The translations under genes and the position numbers were made by a program. Source: Chitinophaga pinensis (GTDB taxonomy: Bacteria; Bacteroidota; Bacteroidia; UBA7662). From it: 64,000 nucleotides of DNA. Numbering within the stretch: position 1 is the first letter of the stretch; every line of letters begins with the position of its first letter. Where the stretch lies: positions 434,001 through 498,000 of the forward strand of contig CAMCHJ010000001.1 in the NCBI GenBank assembly GCA_945874665.1, read 5' to 3'. This document shows, one piece after another, positions 19,491-61,341 of this stretch. Under the pieces are notes generated by a model. The model searched no databases. It had not been told where the DNA came from and worked only from the letters and a program-made list of their open reading frames with translations.

Positions 19491-22310
19491 TTAACGACTA
19501 AGGTACATCGATTTCCGCTTGTATAAGTCACGGAAATACGGGTCCTTCAAGTCTTTAATGAAACGAATGGCCTCGCCAGTCGACTTCATTTCAGGGCCCA
19601 ATTCCTTGTTTACGTTCGGAAACTTCTCGAAAGAAAACACAGGTTCTTTGATTGCCCAACCTTCTAATCGTTTTTTAATGTCGAAATCTTTGAGTTTGTG
19701 GGTGCCAAGCATCACCTTGGTAGCGATATTAACAAAGGCTACATCGTAAGCTTTGGCCAAAAAAGGCACCGTACGCGACGCACGGGGGTTTGCCTCAATC
19801 ACATATACCATGTCGTTTTTGATGGCAAACTGCACATTCATGAGCCCAGAAATATTTAAGGCATGTGCTAATTTTTTGGTGTACTCTTCCATTTGGGAAA
19901 CAACCAGGGGCGACAAACCGAAGGGCGGCAGTACTGAATTCGAGTCGCCAGAGTGGATGCCCGCCGGCTCAATGTGTTCCATCACACCGCAGATCATCAC
20001 GTCTTCGCCGTCACAGATACAATCGGTTTCTGCCTCCATGGCCCTGTCCAGGAAATGGTCGATGAGGATGCGGTTGCCTGGAATTTTCCGCAGCAAATCT
20101 ACCACCGCATGCTCCAGCTCTTCTTCGTTGATCACGATGCTCATGCCTTGTCCACCAAGCACATAGCTCGGGCGCACCAAAACAGGGTAACCCACTTCAC
20201 GCGCAATTTCGAGGGCTTCTTCGGCGGTTTCAGCCACCCCATACTTTGGATAAGGGATGTCGAGTTCTTTGAGCAAATCGCTAAAACGACCGCGGTCCTC
20301 CGCCAAATCCATATTGGTGAAATTGGTGCCGATAATTTTAACACCCGCGTTTTCTAGGTGCTCTGCTAATTTTAAGGCAGTTTGTCCGCCCAATTGTACA
20401 ATCACGCCCTCCGGCTTTTCATGCTCTACAATGTCGAGCAAATGCTCCCAAAATACTGGCTCGAAATAGAGTTTGTCGGCCATGTTGAAGTCGGTGCTCA
20501 CCGTTTCGGGATTACAATTAATCATGATGGCTTCGTAACCCACTTCGCGTGCGGCGAGCAAGCCATGTACGCAGCTGTAGTCGAATTCGATGCCTTGGCC
20601 AATGCGGTTGGGACCGCTGCCGAGCACGATGATTTTCTTTTTATCGGTACGAATAGATTCGTTTTCGGTATCGTAGGTGCTGTAGTAATAGGGGGTTTCG
20701 GCCTGAAATTCGGCGGCGCAGGTATCTACGAGCTTCCAAACACGGTTCAGGCCTAGCTCTTTGCGCTTGGCGCGTACATCGGCTTCGGAAGTGGTATCGC
20801 CTAAAACATGGGCGATTTGGGCATCGGCGAAACCGTTTTTCTTGAGTTCATCTAGCAAGCCTTTGGGCAAGCTGCTCAGGGTATAGCGGCGTAATTCAGC
20901 CTGTAAATCAACAATGTGTTGTATCTGACGCAAAAACCAGGGGTCGATGCGCGTAGCTTTTTGCACCGATTTAACAGGCACACCCAAAGCCAAGGCATCG
21001 TGCACGTGAAACAGCCTATCCCAGCTCGCAAACTCTAAACTGTGCATGAGTTTGTCGAGGTTTTTTTCCTCTTTGCCATCCGCACCTAAGCCTAAGCGAT
21101 TGATTTCTAAACTCTGACAAGCCTTTTGGAGCGCTTCGTTGAAGCTGCGACCAATGCCCATCACTTCGCCCACCGATTTCATTTGGAAACCGAGGGTGCG
21201 GTCGGCACCTGGGAATTTGTCGAAGTTCCACTTCGGGATTTTAACAATCACATAGTCCAAAGTCGGCTCAAAATAAGCCGATGTGCTCATCGTAATTTGG
21301 TTCGGCAACTCATCGAGGTTATAACCGATGGCTAGTTTCGCCGCGATTTTAGCAATCGGATAGCCTGTGGCCTTCGAGGCAAGGGCAGAGGAACGTGAAA
21401 CACGCGGGTTGATTTCGATCGCGATGAGTTGCTCGGTTTCAGGGTCCATCGCAAACTGCACATTACAACCTCCTGCAAAATTGCCAATGGCACGCATCAT
21501 TTTGATCGATTGGTTGCGCATATCTTGGAAGGCAGCATCACTCAAGGTCATGGCCGGTGCCACCGTAATGCTATCACCAGTATGGATGCCCATCGGATCA
21601 AAATTTTCGATGGTACAAATGATGCAAACGTTGTCGTTGTTGTCGCGTAGCAACTCTAACTCGTATTCTTTCCAGCCCAAAACGGCTTTGTCGATCATTA
21701 CTTCATGCGTAGGTGAGGCCGCCAAGCCACGCACCAAGGCCTTTTCGAAATCTTCTTTTTGGCGGATTACTGCGCCGCCTGAGCCGCCCAAGGTATAGGA
21801 AGGCCGAATAACCAACGGAAAACCAATTTCTTCAGCCGCTTCTTTGCCTTCAAGAAAGGAGTTCGCAGTTTTAGCTGGCGCTACCGCTACGCCGATTTGG
21901 CTCATCAGCTTGCGGAATTCTTCGCGGTTTTCAGTGGTTTCAATGGCAGCAATGTCTACCCCAATCATCCGCACTCCGTATTTCTCCCAAATCCCCAATT
22001 CATCTGCTTCTTTACAGAGGTTGAGCGCTGTTTGACCACCCATGGTAGGCAACACTGCGTCAATCTGACGTTCTTGTAAGATTTGTTCTATCGATTCAAC
22101 CGTTAATGGCAACAGATACACATGGTCTGCTGTTACTTTGTCGGTCATGATGGTCGCCGGATTGGAGTTAATCAAGGCTACCTCTATCCCTTCTTCCTTG
22201 AGCGAACGCGCCGCTTGTGAACCGGAATAATCGAATTCGCAGGCCTGACCGATGACGATGGGGCCGCTGCCGACAATGAGTACTGATTTGATAGAATGAT
22301 CCCTAGGCAT
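19491..22310 (-). CDS. carB: Carbamoyl-phosphate synthase large subunit, without C-terminal regulatory domain
   Basis: 939 aa against about 1070 in E. coli. Makes carbamoyl phosphate for pyrimidine and arginine synthesis from bicarbonate, ATP and ammonia supplied by the small subunit, whose gene is not in the window. Two ATP-grasp halves are seen, starting VLIVGSGPIVIGQACEFDYSG and IIVLGSGPNRIGQGIEFDYS, each with its own R-P-S-Y-LGG loop. The chain ends after the second half (DLYKRKSMYLSR), so the MGS-like allosteric domain that binds UMP/ornithine in E. coli is missing. I believe this short form is usual in Bacteroidota. First gene of a carB-regulator-kinase unit. Confidence 0.97.
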   Translation of the reverse strand: MPRDHSIKSVLIVGSGPIVIGQACEFDYSGSQAARSLKEEGIEVALINSNPATIMTDKVTADHVYLLPLTVESIEQILQERQIDAVLPTMGGQTALNLCKEADELGIWEKYGVRMIGVDIAAIETTENREEFRKLMSQIGVAVAPAKTANSFLEGKEAAEEIGFPLVIRPSYTLGGSGGAVIRQKEDFEKALVRGLAASPTHEVMIDKAVLGWKEYELELLRDNNDNVCIICTIENFDPMGIHTGDSITVAPAMTLSDAAFQDMRNQSIKMMRAIGNFAGGCNVQFAMDPETEQLIAIEINPRVSRSSALASKATGYPIAKIAAKLAIGYNLDELPNQITMSTSAYFEPTLDYVIVKIPKWNFDKFPGADRTLGFQMKSVGEVMGIGRSFNEALQKACQSLEINRLGLGADGKEEKNLDKLMHSLEFASWDRLFHVHDALALGVPVKSVQKATRIDPWFLRQIQHIVDLQAELRRYTLSSLPKGLLDELKKNGFADAQIAHVLGDTTSEADVRAKRKELGLNRVWKLVDTCAAEFQAETPYYYSTYDTENESIRTDKKKIIVLGSGPNRIGQGIEFDYSCVHGLLAAREVGYEAIMINCNPETVSTDFNMADKLYFEPVFWEHLLDIVEHEKPEGVIVQLGGQTALKLAEHLENAGVKIIGTNFTNMDLAEDRGRFSDLLKELDIPYPKYGVAETAEEALEIAREVGYPVLVRPSYVLGGQGMSIVINEEELEHAVVDLLRKIPGNRILIDHFLDRAMEAETDCICDGEDVMICGVMEHIEPAGIHSGDSNSVLPPFGLSPLVVSQMEEYTKKLAHALNISGLMNVQFAIKNDMVYVIEANPRASRTVPFLAKAYDVAFVNIATKVMLGTHKLKDFDIKKRLEGWAIKEPVFSFEKFPNVNKELGPEMKSTGEAIRFIKDLKDPYFRDLYKRKSMYLSR

Positions 22311-22387: not shown

Positions 22388-23617
22388 TTAATGCTTTTGG
22401 GGATGCACTTCTAGGCGTTGTAGCCAGTCGTGTGCCGCCACTAACTCGATGTTGCCCTGGTCGTAGCTCAGCCGGTCGTTTTGGTTGAAAGTAACGATTG
22501 TGCCAGTTTTGAAGCCAAAATAGGCCATGGCTTCGAGCAAGCCGTTCACCTCCCGCTCGAGGTTTTCAGGCGTTACTTCATAGCAAGCTTGTACCAATTG
22601 CTGGCATTGGCCGTGCTGCATCATCACAAAGGCGCATTCGTGCTTTTCGGAGAAGTAAAAGAGGTCCTGACTCAACCTCCGCAACGCTAAAAACACCAAG
22701 TTTTCGAGTTTTCGCCCAAGGTCCTCTTGCATAGAACCACTGTTGGCCTGCACGATGCCGGGGTCAACAACGTATATTTTTCGGGGATTAACCAGTTGCT
22801 TGCGGGCGGAGGGACTGTATTTAGGCAGGTAGAAGCACAAATAAGCGTCTTCGAGGTAGCTAAGATATTCGAGGAGCGTGGATTTTGATTTGAGGTCGAT
22901 GAGGCTGAGCAATCGACTGGCGGTGAACAGCTTGCCTACATTGGAAAGCAAGTACCAGGCGAGGCGTTGCAAACTCTTTACGTCGCGCAGGGCGTAACGC
23001 ACCGCGATGTCGCGTAGCAGTATGTCCTCGAGCAGGTGTTGCAATATTTCGTCGCGTTGGTATTTCACATATTCTGGAAAGCCGCCTTGATGGAGGTATT
23101 TGAGCAGGGTTTTTTCGCTAGCGACTTTCTTTTCAAAGGCTAGATACTCGCCAAACGAAAAGGGGAAGAGCTCGAAAGAGATGTGGCGGCCCGTGAGCTT
23201 GGTGCCGAGTTCTTTGCTCAACAAGGAGGCATTGGAGCCCGTGATGACCACGCGATAGCCCGTATCGAGCAGGTGCCGTATGTAGCGTTCCCAGTCTTCT
23301 ACTACATGTATCTCATTTAAAAATAGCGTTTTGCAGCCCATTTCTGCTAATAGTTCATCCAGCCGACTGTAGTCGAATTTGTCGAAAGGATACAGCTTAG
23401 GGTCTTCAAAATTAAGGTAATAGCTGCCTTCACCGGTGCTGCTCAAAAGCTGGTGCAGGAGTGTACTTTTTCCACTTCGGCGCACACCGCTTACGATGAG
23501 CGCATGACTTTCGGGTAAAAAAAGCTGTTGATGAACGCGCCGCTCTAGTCCACTCGACTTCGTTTGAAGCTGTGAAAGCTGCGTTTTAAGCACGTTTTTG
23601 AGGGTGGATTTGAGCAT
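22388..23617 (-). CDS. AAA-type ATPase with DUF4143 C-terminal domain
   Basis: 409 aa. Walker A GVRRSGKST at about 44-52, Walker B-like LFLNEIHVVEDWE at about 98-110, sensor VITGSNASLL at about 124-133, giving the AAA_14 pattern; the C-terminal half (about 205-370) fits DUF4143. Proteins of this build are widespread in Bacteroidota accessory DNA, often many copies per genome, with unknown function; the C-terminal domain has been compared to nucleases. The gene stands alone, preceded by a 23-bp tandem repeat and its own promoter, suggesting tight regulation. Confidence 0.88.
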   Translation of the reverse strand: MLKSTLKNVLKTQLSQLQTKSSGLERRVHQQLFLPESHALIVSGVRRSGKSTLLHQLLSSTGEGSYYLNFEDPKLYPFDKFDYSRLDELLAEMGCKTLFLNEIHVVEDWERYIRHLLDTGYRVVITGSNASLLSKELGTKLTGRHISFELFPFSFGEYLAFEKKVASEKTLLKYLHQGGFPEYVKYQRDEILQHLLEDILLRDIAVRYALRDVKSLQRLAWYLLSNVGKLFTASRLLSLIDLKSKSTLLEYLSYLEDAYLCFYLPKYSPSARKQLVNPRKIYVVDPGIVQANSGSMQEDLGRKLENLVFLALRRLSQDLFYFSEKHECAFVMMQHGQCQQLVQACYEVTPENLEREVNGLLEAMAYFGFKTGTIVTFNQNDRLSYDQGNIELVAAHDWLQRLEVHPQKH

Positions 23618-23635
23618 TTTTAATCTTGTTTGTTA

Positions 23636-23643
23636 CAAATGTA
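23636..23643 (-). promoter_or_regulatory. DUF4143 ATPase promoter -7 box
   Basis: Minus-strand TACATTTG, with a TTG exactly 19 nt upstream that lies inside the first 23-bp repeat. The ATG is 18 nt downstream. Confidence 0.65.
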
Positions 23644-23649
23644 CAAAAG

Positions 23650-23718
23650 TGTTTTTTAATAACAAACGAGATTGTTTTTTATAAACGAACATCTTTGTTT
23701 TTTAGTAACAAACAACTT
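23650..23718. repeat. Three tandem 23-bp repeats upstream of the DUF4143 ATPase gene
   Basis: Units at 23650-23672, 23673-23695 and 23696-23718, each beginning TGTTTTTTA and containing a variant of TAACAAAC (AATAACAAACG, ATAAACGAACA, AGTAACAAACA). A fourth unit begins at 23719 (TGTT) and breaks down. The first unit overlaps the -33 element of the ATPase promoter, and an inverted copy of the core (GTTTGTTAC) occurs at 23628-23636. This is best read as an array of transcription-factor sites. Confidence 0.8.
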
Positions 23719-23879
23719 TGTTCATTCAAAAAATGAAACCACCCATTGTCGATGAACCAAATACAACAGGTAAAGCATGCCTGGTAAAGATATTTTAACA
23801 CAAAATGGCCTTCAGTTTCAATTAAAACCAGGACATTTGTACATTCTTTTTAATAGTCACCTTTTCTTTATTTCCGCGC

Positions 23880-26168
23880 ATGCGCTACCTCCTTTTGCTT
23901 GTAGGGCTTTTGGCCACATCAAACAGTTTTGCTCAAAATTTTACCCTCAGCGGATACATCAAAGATGCCAAAACAGGTGAAGCCTTGATTGGCGCCGTTG
24001 TGGCGGTGAGTGGCGCACCCGCGAGAGGTACTGTTACCAATGTATATGGTTATTATGTACTCAGCTTGCCTGCGGGTACTTACGATTTTCAAGTGAGCTA
24101 CCTGGGCTACACCATGCTCAAACAATCCTTGATCATGCGCGCTTCTCAAAAACTCAATATTGAATTAAAACCTGCACAACAGCAACTCAAAGAAGTACTT
24201 GTGACGGGCGAAGCAGATGATCAGCGCCTGCGCCAAAGTCAGATGGGCGTCGAAAAAATGAACATTGCCACAGTGAATAAATTACCCATTTTGTTTGGTG
24301 AGCGCGATGTACTTAAGTCGATGCAGCTTTTACCAGGGGTAAAGGCTGGTGGCGAGGGACAAAGCGGCTTTTCGGTCCGGGGCGGTAATCTCGACCAAAA
24401 CCTCATTTTGCTCGACGATGCGCCAGTTTACAACGCCTCCCACCTGCTCGGCTTCTTTTCAACTTTTAACTCCGACGCCATCAAAGACCTCACTCTGCAC
24501 AAAGGTACAGCACCCGCTAATTTTGGGGGAAGATTGGCTTCGGTGGTCGATGTGCGCATGAAAGAAGGCAACAACCAGAAGTACAACGTATCGGGCGGTT
24601 TAGGATTGATTGCCTCTCGCCTCAATGTGGAGGGTCCTATTCAAGAAGGACGCTCGTCCTTTTTATTGTCAGGCCGCCGTACCTATGCCGATGTATTTCT
24701 TCGCTTGAACGATGATTTTGCCAACAACTCTCTGTATTTCTACGATTTTAATGCCAAGCTGAATTATCGGCTTACCGACAAAGACCATATTTACCTTTCG
24801 GGCTATTTTGGCAGGGATGTGTTCAGTTTCGATGATCAATTTGGCATTAACTGGGGCAATGCTACCGGTACCTTGCGCTATACACGCCTCATCAGCGATA
24901 AATTATTTCTAAATAGCTCCCTCATTTACAGCAATTACGATTACAACATCGGTTTTTCGACCAGCGCGCTGGACATCAATATTAATTCGGGCATTGAGGA
25001 CTGGAATATCAAGCAAGAGCTACAGTATTTTGCCAGCAATACGCAACAGTGGAAGGTAGGTTACAACGTCATTTACCACACGGTTACGCCGGGTTTGGTG
25101 AATGCCGAAAACACCGACATCAGCAGCTTACAGAAACGTGGCTTGGAGTCGGCTGCTTATGTAAGTCACGATTGGAAGCCTACGGAGCGGTTTAACATCA
25201 CTTCAGGATTGCGGGTTAGTCATTTTGCAGCCCTCGGTGGTAGCAACTATTATACCCTCGATGCCAATCGCACCGTCATCGATACTTTCAATCCCGCCGG
25301 TGTGGCCGCACAATACGCCTTTCTCGAGCCCCGCATCGCCGTCAATTATAACCTCACTACCACGTCTAGTCTCAAAACCTCCTACACCCGCAATACCCAG
25401 CACATACATTTGGTTAGTAACGCCATTGCTTCTACCCCAACCGACCGCTGGTTGATGACAACCAACAATGTGGCACCTGAAATTGGGGATCAGTTTTCAA
25501 TTGGCTACTTCCGTAATTTTAAGGAAAACACGTACGAGTTTAGCGTGGAAACCTATTATAAATGGATGCAAAACCAGCTGGATTATAAAGACGGTGCCAA
25601 CGACCAAGCCACGGTTATTGACCCGGAGTTACTTTTTGGTGATGGCAGGGCCTATGGTTTAGAATGGCTGTTTCGAAAAAATAAAGGTCGGTTTACCGGT
25701 TGGTTGAGCTATACAATTTCGCGTTCCGAGCGCCGCATCGATGGTATTAATAAAGGTGCGTGGTATGCTGCGCGCCAAGATCGCACCCACGATGTAGCGG
25801 TTGTGGCGTTGTACGAGATTTCAGAGCGCTTTAATGTTTCTGCGGCATGGATTTATCAAACAGGCAATGCGGTGACCTTCCCAGCTGGTAAATACAACAT
25901 TGCCGACCAAGTGGTTTGGCTTTACACCGAGCGCAATGGCTACCGCATGCCAGCATACCACCGCCTCGATTTAGGCGCCACCTATCAACTCAAGCCCAAA
26001 CGAAAATACAGCAGCGAGCTCGCCTTTAGTCTGTATAACGCTTATGGTCGCCAAAACCCATTCCTCATTAATTTTGAACAAAGCGCTACCAATCCCAACC
26101 GCACTGTAGCCGTGCAAACGGCTCTTTTCCGTTGGGTACCTGCGGTGAGTTGGAATTTTAAATTTTAA
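23880..26168 (+). CDS. TonB-dependent outer-membrane receptor with carboxypeptidase-like domain
   Basis: 762 aa. Signal peptide to about residue 19 (SNSFAQ), an N-terminal CarboxypepD_reg-like beta-sandwich (FTLSGYIKDAKTGEALIGA, about 21-100), then the plug (GERDVLKSMQLLPGVKAGGEGQSGFSVRGG, DQNLILLDDAPVYN) and a 22-strand-type barrel ending in the aromatic SWNFKF. It should import a ligand across the outer membrane with TonB energy; the ligand is unknown. The DUF4249 lipoprotein gene follows after 3 nt, a common pairing in this phylum that recalls SusC/SusD. I did not find a convincing promoter box. Confidence 0.93.
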   Translation: MRYLLLLVGLLATSNSFAQNFTLSGYIKDAKTGEALIGAVVAVSGAPARGTVTNVYGYYVLSLPAGTYDFQVSYLGYTMLKQSLIMRASQKLNIELKPAQQQLKEVLVTGEADDQRLRQSQMGVEKMNIATVNKLPILFGERDVLKSMQLLPGVKAGGEGQSGFSVRGGNLDQNLILLDDAPVYNASHLLGFFSTFNSDAIKDLTLHKGTAPANFGGRLASVVDVRMKEGNNQKYNVSGGLGLIASRLNVEGPIQEGRSSFLLSGRRTYADVFLRLNDDFANNSLYFYDFNAKLNYRLTDKDHIYLSGYFGRDVFSFDDQFGINWGNATGTLRYTRLISDKLFLNSSLIYSNYDYNIGFSTSALDININSGIEDWNIKQELQYFASNTQQWKVGYNVIYHTVTPGLVNAENTDISSLQKRGLESAAYVSHDWKPTERFNITSGLRVSHFAALGGSNYYTLDANRTVIDTFNPAGVAAQYAFLEPRIAVNYNLTTTSSLKTSYTRNTQHIHLVSNAIASTPTDRWLMTTNNVAPEIGDQFSIGYFRNFKENTYEFSVETYYKWMQNQLDYKDGANDQATVIDPELLFGDGRAYGLEWLFRKNKGRFTGWLSYTISRSERRIDGINKGAWYAARQDRTHDVAVVALYEISERFNVSAAWIYQTGNAVTFPAGKYNIADQVVWLYTERNGYRMPAYHRLDLGATYQLKPKRKYSSELAFSLYNAYGRQNPFLINFEQSATNPNRTVAVQTALFRWVPAVSWNFKF

Positions 26169-59367: not shown

Positions 59368-59511
59368 CAGACCGATTTGCTTTTTGATATTGGTATCCCG
59401 CTGCTAAGGAAGCAAGTTGTGCAGCGGTAGTTTATAGTCCATAGCTCCTGTTCAATCCGTGGGACTAGACCTTATTAACATTCCCAGCGCGGCAATGTGA
59501 ATAATTATCAT

Positions 59512-59519
59512 TACCTTTG
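59512..59519 (+). promoter_or_regulatory. -7 box of the pseudouridine synthase gene
   Basis: TACCTTTG, 22 nt before the ATG at 59542. Confidence 0.65.
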
Positions 59520-59541
59520 CGGAATATTTAATTATTTTTTC

Positions 59542-61341
59542 ATGAACGCCAATGAGAATTACGGTCGCGATGACCGCAGCAGGCGCACCCAGCAAGATGC
59601 AAATGCTTTTAATGAAGACCGTCAAGCCCGTTTAGAGCGCTTACAAAAGGAACTTCATACGCTGGAATCGGGTAGCGACGATCAGAAATCAAAACTGATC
59701 TCCAGAGATTTAGACCGCCAGCAAAACAAACCAGATTTTTCAGGTAACCGTCCGTTTGGTCGCTTTGAGCGCAACGACCGCGGTACTGACCGTCCGTTTA
59801 ACCGCGAAGGTGGCCGCTCGTTTGAGCGCCGCGACGACCGTGGTGGCGAGCGTCCATCGTTTAACCGCGAGGGCCGTCCACCGTTCGAACGCCGCGATGG
59901 CGATAGCCGTCCGCCTTTCCAACGCCGTGATGGCGATAGCCGTCCACCGTTCCAGCGCCGTGACGAAAATGGTGGAGGCGATTTTAAGCCCCGCACCCGT
60001 CGCGACGACCAAGGAGAAGGCTTCCGCTCACGCCCGCCTTTCCAACGCAGAGATGATAACCAGGGCGATCGTCCGTCGTTTAACCGCGACAGCCGTCCGC
60101 CTTTTGAGCGCCGCGATGACCGTGGTGGCGACCGTCCTTCGTTTAACCGCGAAGGTGGCCCAAGAAACTTCGACCGCAGCGACCGTCCAAGTGGCGACCG
60201 CCCGGCCTTTAACCGCGATAGCCGTCCGCCTTTCGAGCGCCGTGACGACCGTGGTGGCGACCGTCCTTCGTTCAACCGCGAAGGTGGTCCAAGAAACTTT
60301 GAGCGCCCAGCTGGCGACCGCCCGCCATTTAACCGCGAAGGTGGTCCCCGCAATTTTGAGCGCCCAGCTGGCGACCGTCCTCCGTTTAACCGCGAAGGTG
60401 GCCGTCCCTACGAGCGCCGCGAAGGCTTTACGCCTCGCCGCGAAGGTGGTAGTGACCGACCTGCTTTTAATCGCAGCAACGACCGCAACGACCGTGGCAA
60501 CAGCCGTTTTGGCGACCGCCGGTCGACCGGTAACCGCGACAACCGTTCGGGTTTTAACGCGCCCGACAGCCGTCGCAGAGGCAGACTAACCGATTTGGAT
60601 TTCCCAGCGAAACCCCAAACTATCGTGTTTGAACAGCCTATGCGATTGAACCGCTACATTGCTAACTCAGGCATTTGCAGCCGCCGTCGGGCCGATGAGC
60701 TCATCACTGCTGGTGAAATTTTCATCAACGGTACCGCTGTAACCGAGTTAGGCAGCCGCGTGCAGCCAGGCGATGTGGTAACCTACGCTGGCCGCACCCT
60801 CAGCCTCGAAACTTTGGTGTATGTGCTGCTCAATAAGCCGAAAGACTTTATCACCACCCTCGACGATCCAGAAGAGCGCCGCACGGTGATGAACTTGGTG
60901 AAAAACGCCACCGAAGAGCGCATTGTACCTGTGGGCCGGCTCGACCGCAATACCACTGGTTTGCTCGTGCTCACCAATGATGGCGAACTCACCCAAAAGC
61001 TTACACACCCGAGCAATAATATAGCCAAGGTGTATGATGTGGTGCTCGACAAGCCGCTCACCCAAGCCCATTTTGAGCAAATTGCTGAGGGCGTTACCCT
61101 CGACGATGGCTTGGCCACGGTAGATGCGATTGCGTATCCAAATCCTGAAGATAAGTGTGAAGTAGGCGTAGAGATTCACAGCGGGCGTAACCGCATTGTA
61201 CGTCGCATTTTTGAAAGTTTAGGCTATGATGTGGTAAAGCTCGACCGTGTATTTTATGCTGGCATCACCAAAAAAGACCTGCCGCGTGGCAACTGGCGTT
61301 ACCTTACACCCAAGGAAATCACACGTTTGAAGTCGATGTAA
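59542..61341 (+). CDS. RluB/RsuA-family pseudouridine synthase with long disordered N-terminus
   Basis: 599 aa. Residues about 1-350 are low complexity, Arg/Asp/Gly/Pro/Phe-rich, built of repeats such as RPSFNREGGPRNF and RPPFERRDDRGG. The enzyme follows: S4 domain MRLNRYIANSGICSRRRADEL, then VGRLDRNTTGLLVLTNDGEL with the catalytic Asp, and a C-terminal GRNRIVRRIFESLGYDVVKLDR. It should convert a uridine in rRNA to pseudouridine. The tail may bind RNA or form condensates, as RGG-type tracts do; that is inference. A terminator follows. Confidence 0.92.
   Translation: MNANENYGRDDRSRRTQQDANAFNEDRQARLERLQKELHTLESGSDDQKSKLISRDLDRQQNKPDFSGNRPFGRFERNDRGTDRPFNREGGRSFERRDDRGGERPSFNREGRPPFERRDGDSRPPFQRRDGDSRPPFQRRDENGGGDFKPRTRRDDQGEGFRSRPPFQRRDDNQGDRPSFNRDSRPPFERRDDRGGDRPSFNREGGPRNFDRSDRPSGDRPAFNRDSRPPFERRDDRGGDRPSFNREGGPRNFERPAGDRPPFNREGGPRNFERPAGDRPPFNREGGRPYERREGFTPRREGGSDRPAFNRSNDRNDRGNSRFGDRRSTGNRDNRSGFNAPDSRRRGRLTDLDFPAKPQTIVFEQPMRLNRYIANSGICSRRRADELITAGEIFINGTAVTELGSRVQPGDVVTYAGRTLSLETLVYVLLNKPKDFITTLDDPEERRTVMNLVKNATEERIVPVGRLDRNTTGLLVLTNDGELTQKLTHPSNNIAKVYDVVLDKPLTQAHFEQIAEGVTLDDGLATVDAIAYPNPEDKCEVGVEIHSGRNRIVRRIFESLGYDVVKLDRVFYAGITKKDLPRGNWRYLTPKEITRLKSM
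59750..60560 (+). repeat. Degenerate tandem repeats encoding the R/D/G-rich tract
   Basis: Codon-level repeats with a recurring core such as CGTCCTTCGTTTAACCGCGA. Several units around 60110-60400 are nearly identical, which keeps several other frames open as artefacts. Such arrays can change length by recombination. Confidence 0.85.

Follow-up and report, generated by a model that had tools for sequence, protein, structure and literature searches.

A phased 23-bp dyad array at the promoter of a DUF4143 ATPase gene, a likely operator array for the ATPase that the gene encodes

A stretch of 64,000 nucleotides from Chitinophaga pinensis (contig CAMCHJ010000001.1, positions 434,001 to 498,000; hereafter the window) carries a gene for an ATPase of the DUF4143 family and, directly upstream of it, a tandem array of imperfect 17-bp dyads repeated every 23 bp. 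The array is best read as a row of private operators for the encoded ATPase, which would autoregulate by repression; the probability of this reading is put at about 0.8. It draws on the array itself, its phase, the promoter-like boxes within it, its conservation in the protein subfamily, its privacy in the genome and, in the main clade of the family, covariation between operator letters and the predicted recognition helix. From these observations we infer that the protein binds the units cooperatively and with two subunits on each dyad, that it represses and does not activate, and that it can be released. The ATPase is the likely reader of its own array, and repression is the probable outcome.

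Tandem Repeats Finder, run on the window, placed the array at 23643–23722 with a period of 23, 3.5 copies and a score of 83, the top score in the window apart from coding repeats at 59873–60401. None of 100 dinucleotide shuffles of the 130 bp upstream of the gene reached the direct-repeat score. The best single dyad there is unremarkable alone, as 30 of 100 shuffles reach its score. An earlier note, made from the letters of this DNA, had described such an array, and the array is real. The period that the note gave for three copies at 23650, 23673 and 23696 holds, but its starts do not – the exact 17-bp units begin one base further right. A partial unit in phase starts at 23720, and the inverted core that the note saw beside the -7 box is also present; the unit at 23628 accounts for it. 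The minus strand reads TTTG-N19-TACATTTG at 23666..23636, in line with the pattern TTTG-N19-TAnnTTTG, which we take to be the promoter form of Bacteroidota. Its -33 TTTG is contained in the unit that begins at 23651, an overlap that the note had also claimed, so the putative operators appear to sit on the gene's own promoter, as expected of an autorepressor.

Upstream regions were compared across the family. A total of 149 genomes were searched and 76 had a match; 100 homologues taken by score from the matches listed, with the window gene, gave 101 upstream regions. Homologues with a late start in the query, a contig edge or an internal stop were left out (L059, which has a stop, was included); L059 and L127, whose starts are uncertain, were counted among the 101 and kept out of the protein pairs. 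The controls were 73 open reading frames (ORFs) with mechanical starts, from the window and neighbouring loci, and a score was called significant if at most 1 of 100 shuffles reached it. A significant dyad or repeat was found in 76 of the 101 DUF4143 upstream regions and in 12 of the 73 controls. Taken separately, the best dyad was significant in 45 and 9 and the best repeat in 46 and 4, respectively. The DUF4143 upstream regions have a lower G+C content (0.30 vs 0.41 in the controls), and the shuffles preserve composition. In a clade with single dyads, sampled at 30 loci (L379 had no ORF; L353 and L356 are genes already sampled), the dyad was reached by at most 1 of 60 shuffles in 15 of 29 readable genes. 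Outside Bacteroidota, ten plasmid homologues were picked by the analyst from 60 among the matches listed of 496 records. In five of these (L344, L351, L347, L348 and L349) no more than 1 of 100 shuffles attains the score of a dyad or repeat, the period being 32 in L344 and 22 in L351; the element of L349 lies far upstream of its gene and may be a terminator. The score of a further one, L343, was reached by 4 of 100 shuffles.

The repeat period follows the protein subfamily. In a tree of 97 proteins (L077 and L134 were too short to be placed), the best repeat offset is 23 in all six genes of the window's clade, and the 13 best-scoring new relatives with loci (L212–L224; the starts of L212 and L217 are uncertain) all have period 23 as well, which makes 19 of 19. 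In 17 of these the repeat score is attained by no more than 3 of 100 shuffles, the exceptions being L039 (16) and L216 (22). L337, which scores between L223 and L224, has period 23 too, and the periods of more distant relatives are 32 (L225), 33 (L226), 32 (L227) and 35 (L338). In the main clade the period is 32 or 33 in 38 of 43 genes, compared to 8 of 54 elsewhere in the tree. This count is partly circular, because the limits of the clade were chosen on the tree while the periods were visible; a held-out set, free of that, gave 32 or 33 in 46 of 57 genes, and in 35 of 42 in its non-redundant subset. The held-out set came from 103 loci (L240–L342), of which 102 had an ORF and 62 were distinct; L337, L338, L340, L341 and L342 were dropped as outside the main clade, after the table had been seen. 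All four genes of a small group (L048, L055, L058 and L061) have period 40, a score reached by 0, 0, 10 and 2 of 60 shuffles, and so does L342, which is of this kind by its helix. The three nearest neighbours of the group have 38 (L049), 42 (L050) and 15 (L052). Among the control ORFs the best offset was 32 or 33 in 4 of 73, 23 in 2 and 40 in 1. Units of the kind that the earlier note proposed to look for upstream of homologues, and whose absence it would have counted against itself, were thus found, with a qualification – they resemble the window's unit in close relatives, and outside the clade the letters, and even the period, shift with the protein.

Within the main clade, the letters of the operator follow the ATPase's own winged helix. 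A script given nothing but DNA set the register of the dyads in the 43 main-clade genes, and mutual information was computed between protein columns and operator positions. The pair of residue 244 and base 5 ranked first (z 7.0), and that of residue 246 and base 6 joint fifth (z 5.5). A first registration, dropped, often took the other symmetry centre; the revised one weighted G/C pairs and kept even centres. The held-out test matters because this change was made after registrations had been seen beside the residues. Its rules were fixed beforehand: D244 predicts C5 and S244 G5; N246 predicts A6, K246 C6 and E246 G6. The rule for residue 244 was right in 28, wrong in 9 and ambiguous in 6 of 43 held-out genes, and that for residue 246 was right in 23, wrong in 9 and ambiguous in 2 of 34. 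When operators were permuted 10,000 times among the 57 held-out genes, the mean numbers right were 12.8 and 9.8 and the maxima 22 and 19. With a registration score of at least 10 the counts (right/wrong/ambiguous) were 25/4/4 of 33 and 21/5/2 of 28. The held-out proteins are at most 69% identical to the training proteins; for 42 non-redundant ones the counts were 20/7/5 and 17/7/1, reached by 0 of 10,000 permutations. Of the 1,410 pairs tested in the held-out genes, these two take the first two places (z 9.9 each), followed by R47 (z 7.4). Two residues largely predict two DNA letters.

Protein pairs were also compared. At an identity of 0.45–0.60 outside the winged helix, base 5 agrees in 488 of 585 pairs that match at residue 244 vs 91 of 362 that differ there, and base 6 in 211 of 281 pairs that match at residue 246 vs 136 of 727 that differ. 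In the 0.20–0.35 bin the trend for residue 246 is reversed, with few pairs (0 of 7 same, 10 of 16 different). A crude test, which set the best 11-mer shared between upstream regions against identity at protein columns, failed to pick out the code. The window's clade has seven genes with S244 and N246. Three of these, L221–L223 (two of them near-identical), have GA at bases 5–6 in 4 of 4 half-sites each; L220 has it in 3 of 6, so that the code holds there in part. As a separate observation, the genome G165 has six main-clade paralogues (L240, L284, L323, L324, L335 and L336; L324 weakly registered) whose registered half-sites differ, as if mutually insulated.

The dyad is private to the window's DUF4143 gene within its genome (2.29 Mb, 96% complete). 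With up to 2 mismatches allowed it occurs at 7 places, compared to 17 for a control pattern. Three of the seven are units of the array, with 1, 1 and 2 mismatches, and the other four are single sites with 2 mismatches. In another genome, G142, both perfect copies of its dyad are directly upstream of its DUF4143 gene, and the next best site has 2 mismatches. In G061, a search with a short degenerate dyad did not outperform its control (67 vs 72). A relative 92% identical to the window protein (L005/L008) has the same arrangement of the array with diverged letters, and its upstream neighbour is a PEPCK gene, compared to a TonB-receptor-like gene in the window.

The window protein passes both Pfam curated cut-offs, with an E-value of 2.2e-33 for AAA_14 (115.5 bits, cut-off 27) and 6.8e-19 for DUF4143 (68.6 bits, cut-off 28.1). 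Residues 23–401 of the protein (P0001) match the PADLOC profile PDLC04787 of PDC-S01 (E 1.3e-106, 354.9 bits). The NCBIfam search gave no family for it, and the best match of a PDB sequence search with the family profile was 2fna, over the ATPase core only. In a predicted model (mean pLDDT 90.3, pTM 0.90), a winged helix is formed by helices 213–225, 233–240 and 245–257 and strands 261–266 and 279–283, with an alpha/beta domain after it. Residues 244 and 246 are placed at the start of the third helix, the predicted recognition helix, and the protein would have a DNA-binding domain of its own, as an autorepressor should. When five homologous segments were compared with helix-turn-helix profiles, L103 alone passed cut-offs (HTH_11, HTH_10 and HTH_IclR), with L073 just under.

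Residues 17–294 of the model align with SSO1545 (2fna) at Z 16.0 over 257 residues, with a root-mean-square deviation (rmsd) of 3.6. Plant NLRs score about Z 15, CED-4 (4m9s) Z 14.8 and 9jap Z 11.9, and A. pernix ORC2 (1w5t) scores Z 10.8 (rmsd 4.4, 247 residues). The model points to the AAA+ plus winged-helix fold of STAND ATPases, of the SSO1545/NLR type.

The Walker A motif of the window protein is intact (GVRRSGKS). The Walker B aspartate D101 is N and the nuclease aspartate D329 is A in the window copy, and both are D in the nine relatives shown, as in the 92% identical one. The common E-x-K is replaced by Q-A-C, and by Q-x-C or Q-x-S in the nine relatives. The window copy lacks the catalytic D with E-x-K of an active PD-(D/E)XK nuclease. 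Because of the N and A at the two aspartates, the window enzyme is perhaps decaying, and enzymatic function may be on its way out in this copy even as the array persists. A second DUF4143 gene in the same genome (L002, contig C2 near 128,260, minus strand) is a 198-residue remnant without the winged helix; strong dyads of the TTACTCA..TGAGTAA type remain upstream of it at a 23-bp step, a score reached by 0 of 200 shuffles.

Table 1. The DUF4143 gene, the parts of its protein and the elements upstream of it, in window positions
Feature	Sequence	Position	Strand	Remark
Operator unit, imperfect 17-bp dyad	GTTTTTTAATAACAAAC	23651..23667	.	Covers -33 TTTG
Operator unit, imperfect 17-bp dyad	GTTTTTTATAAACGAAC	23674..23690	.	
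Operator unit, imperfect 17-bp dyad	GTTTTTTAGTAACAAAC	23697..23713	.	
Fourth unit, one clear half-site	GTTTGTTACAAATGTAC	23628..23644	.	Covers -7 box; in 23-bp phase, promoter side
Partial further unit, begins GTTCATT	GTTCATTC	23720..23727	.	In phase; read from letters, unscored
-33-like element	TTTG	23663..23666	minus	Inside unit 23651; TTTG-N19-TAnnTTTG pattern
-7-like element	TACATTTG	23636..23643	minus	Inside unit 23628; TTTG-N19-TAnnTTTG pattern
DUF4143 gene (PDC-S01), 409 aa		22388..23617	minus	AAA_14 ATPase domain, winged helix and C-terminal PD-(D/E)XK-like domain
Winged-helix region, residues 213–283		22769..22981	minus	First half of Pfam DUF4143; predicted model
Residues 244–257		22847..22888	minus	Start and body of predicted recognition helix; 244/246 covary with bases 5/6 in main clade

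In the proposed mechanism the winged helix, probably two per dyad, would bind each 17-bp unit, and contacts between proteins would set the spacing, which is 23 bp for the window's subfamily, 32 for the main subfamily and 40 for a further one. With units occupied on the -33 and -7 elements the promoter would be closed, and the gene would thereby repress itself; binding of a nucleotide or a target by the ATPase could release the repression. The earlier note had proposed phased sites for one factor that give cooperative control. The phased sites over the promoter stand, and cooperativity is suggested by the fixed phase alone. Beyond the note, unit letters and period change with the protein outside the clade, and the factor is likely the ATPase itself.

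Several points weigh against this interpretation. Binding and repression by the ATPase are predictions. A significant dyad or repeat is lacking in 25 of the 101 DUF4143 upstream regions. Because five of the ten plasmid homologues outside Bacteroidota fall short (L345, L346, L350 and L352 show none), the presence of upstream dyads or repeats is not universal in the family. The code is imperfect, with about one-quarter of the scored held-out calls wrong, and other columns covary too, R47 most, as expected from shared descent. In a small test on disjoint nearest pairs, residue 244 was not singled out (rank 111 of 269), and residue 246 ranked 10 of 276. In the window's clade, GA at bases 5–6 was not found in L039–L041 (S244 and N246), where registration is weak, and the window gene itself, with S244 and S246, has mostly AA there, not the G5 predicted from S244. 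The window's own helix-turn-helix segment matched no helix-turn-helix profile, DUF4143 being the sole significant match.

Other explanations were considered. A separate regulator could bind the units and control the DUF4143 gene, perhaps together with the divergent TonB-receptor gene, and there is precedent in the available excerpts on RptR, a stand-alone repressor that binds three direct repeats in a defence island. The array does lie between two divergent genes, but the closest relative retains it with PEPCK as the neighbour, the genome has no other convincing place for the dyad, and the letters of the operator change together with residues in the recognition helix of the ATPase itself; a separate regulator is unlikely. 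A variant in which the ATPase binds the array as an activator, or in order to park or assemble on DNA, without repressing, would fit units that reach well upstream of the -33 element, and according to the excerpts available there are STAND ATPases, IniR among them, that act as activators at a promoter to which they bind. Both core promoter elements are covered by units, however, the usual layout of repression, and this variant is judged very unlikely.

The repeats could also be a functionless tandem duplication or encode RNA hairpins, and the AT-rich character of DUF4143 upstream regions would suit either. This is scarcely credible: shuffles that keep composition rarely reach the scores, the phase is retained in relatives while letters change, residues and bases covary, and most units, lying upstream of the -7 box, would be absent from the transcript. 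Autorepression by the encoded ATPase is preferred over these.

The TonB-receptor-like gene on the other side of the array starts at 23880. On the same strand as the DUF4143 gene and 77 bp past it is a gene for the large chain of carbamoyl-phosphate synthase (19491–22310), which might share the DUF4143 promoter; antisense ORFs in L005 hint at the same downstream gene. The coding repeats at 59873–60401, the strongest in the window by Tandem Repeats Finder, are in a gene (59497–61341) for a pseudouridine synthase with an S4 domain, and encode a long N-terminal tail rich in D, R, P and F.

PDC-S01, an ATPase fused to a PD-(D/E)-X-K domain, is described in the available excerpts of one paper as the fourth most common defence across prokaryotes, most such candidates still awaiting validation; in another, no individual locus is more frequent in rumen genomes. 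It is reported to be among the commonest candidate defence genes, and the available parts of the accounts of it give no mechanism. A self-reading operator array, if true, would be the first concrete biochemical activity of the family. Many homologues would gain a defined DNA target and the family a simple assay, together with natural protein-DNA pairs for a winged-helix recognition code, and one could test whether these genes serve in defence or mainly regulate themselves. A broader idea, speculative and probably not correct as a whole, is that DUF4143/PDC-S01 ATPases are switches of NLR fold in which the winged helix reads DNA by a short residue-to-base code and can evolve new specificities. 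The resting protein, an ordered oligomer, would be parked on its own array, in a geometry specific to the subfamily, and paralogues would coexist without cross-talk; loss from the array, through invading DNA, a nucleotide change or a phage factor, would switch on the gene and free the nuclease-like domain.

The known systems nearest in predicted fold are the STAND ATPases (SSO1545, PAB2304, NLRs, CED-4 and Avs5), which residues 17–294 of the model resemble; to our knowledge the winged helix of NLRs does not read DNA in such a way. Orc1/Cdc6-type AAA+ proteins, which read repeated origin boxes, also carry a winged helix, but score a lower Z, and the comparison is by fold alone. IniR, in the accessible part of its description, is a STAND-like ATPase that binds a promoter, and differs in having a separate C-terminal DNA-binding domain. 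The window protein is of the same family as PDC-S01 by its PDLC04787 match, with an antiphage role that is an unvalidated candidate. The earlier note's statement that the family has no known function needs amending to that extent. The accessible parts of the PDC-S01 accounts mention no operator or DNA sequence specificity, and the window copy is without key residues. The titles and abstract openings listed for DUF4143, COG1373, PDC-S01 and SSO1545 (preprints and most subscription papers lay outside this scope) mention no such operators. RptR, the repressor of a restriction-modification/DarTG2 island, is alike, as far as the available text describes it, in its three direct promoter repeats, its palindromic core and a defence locus under autorepression. 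The difference is that RptR acts as a small regulator apart from the effectors, whereas here the putative effector itself carries the winged helix.
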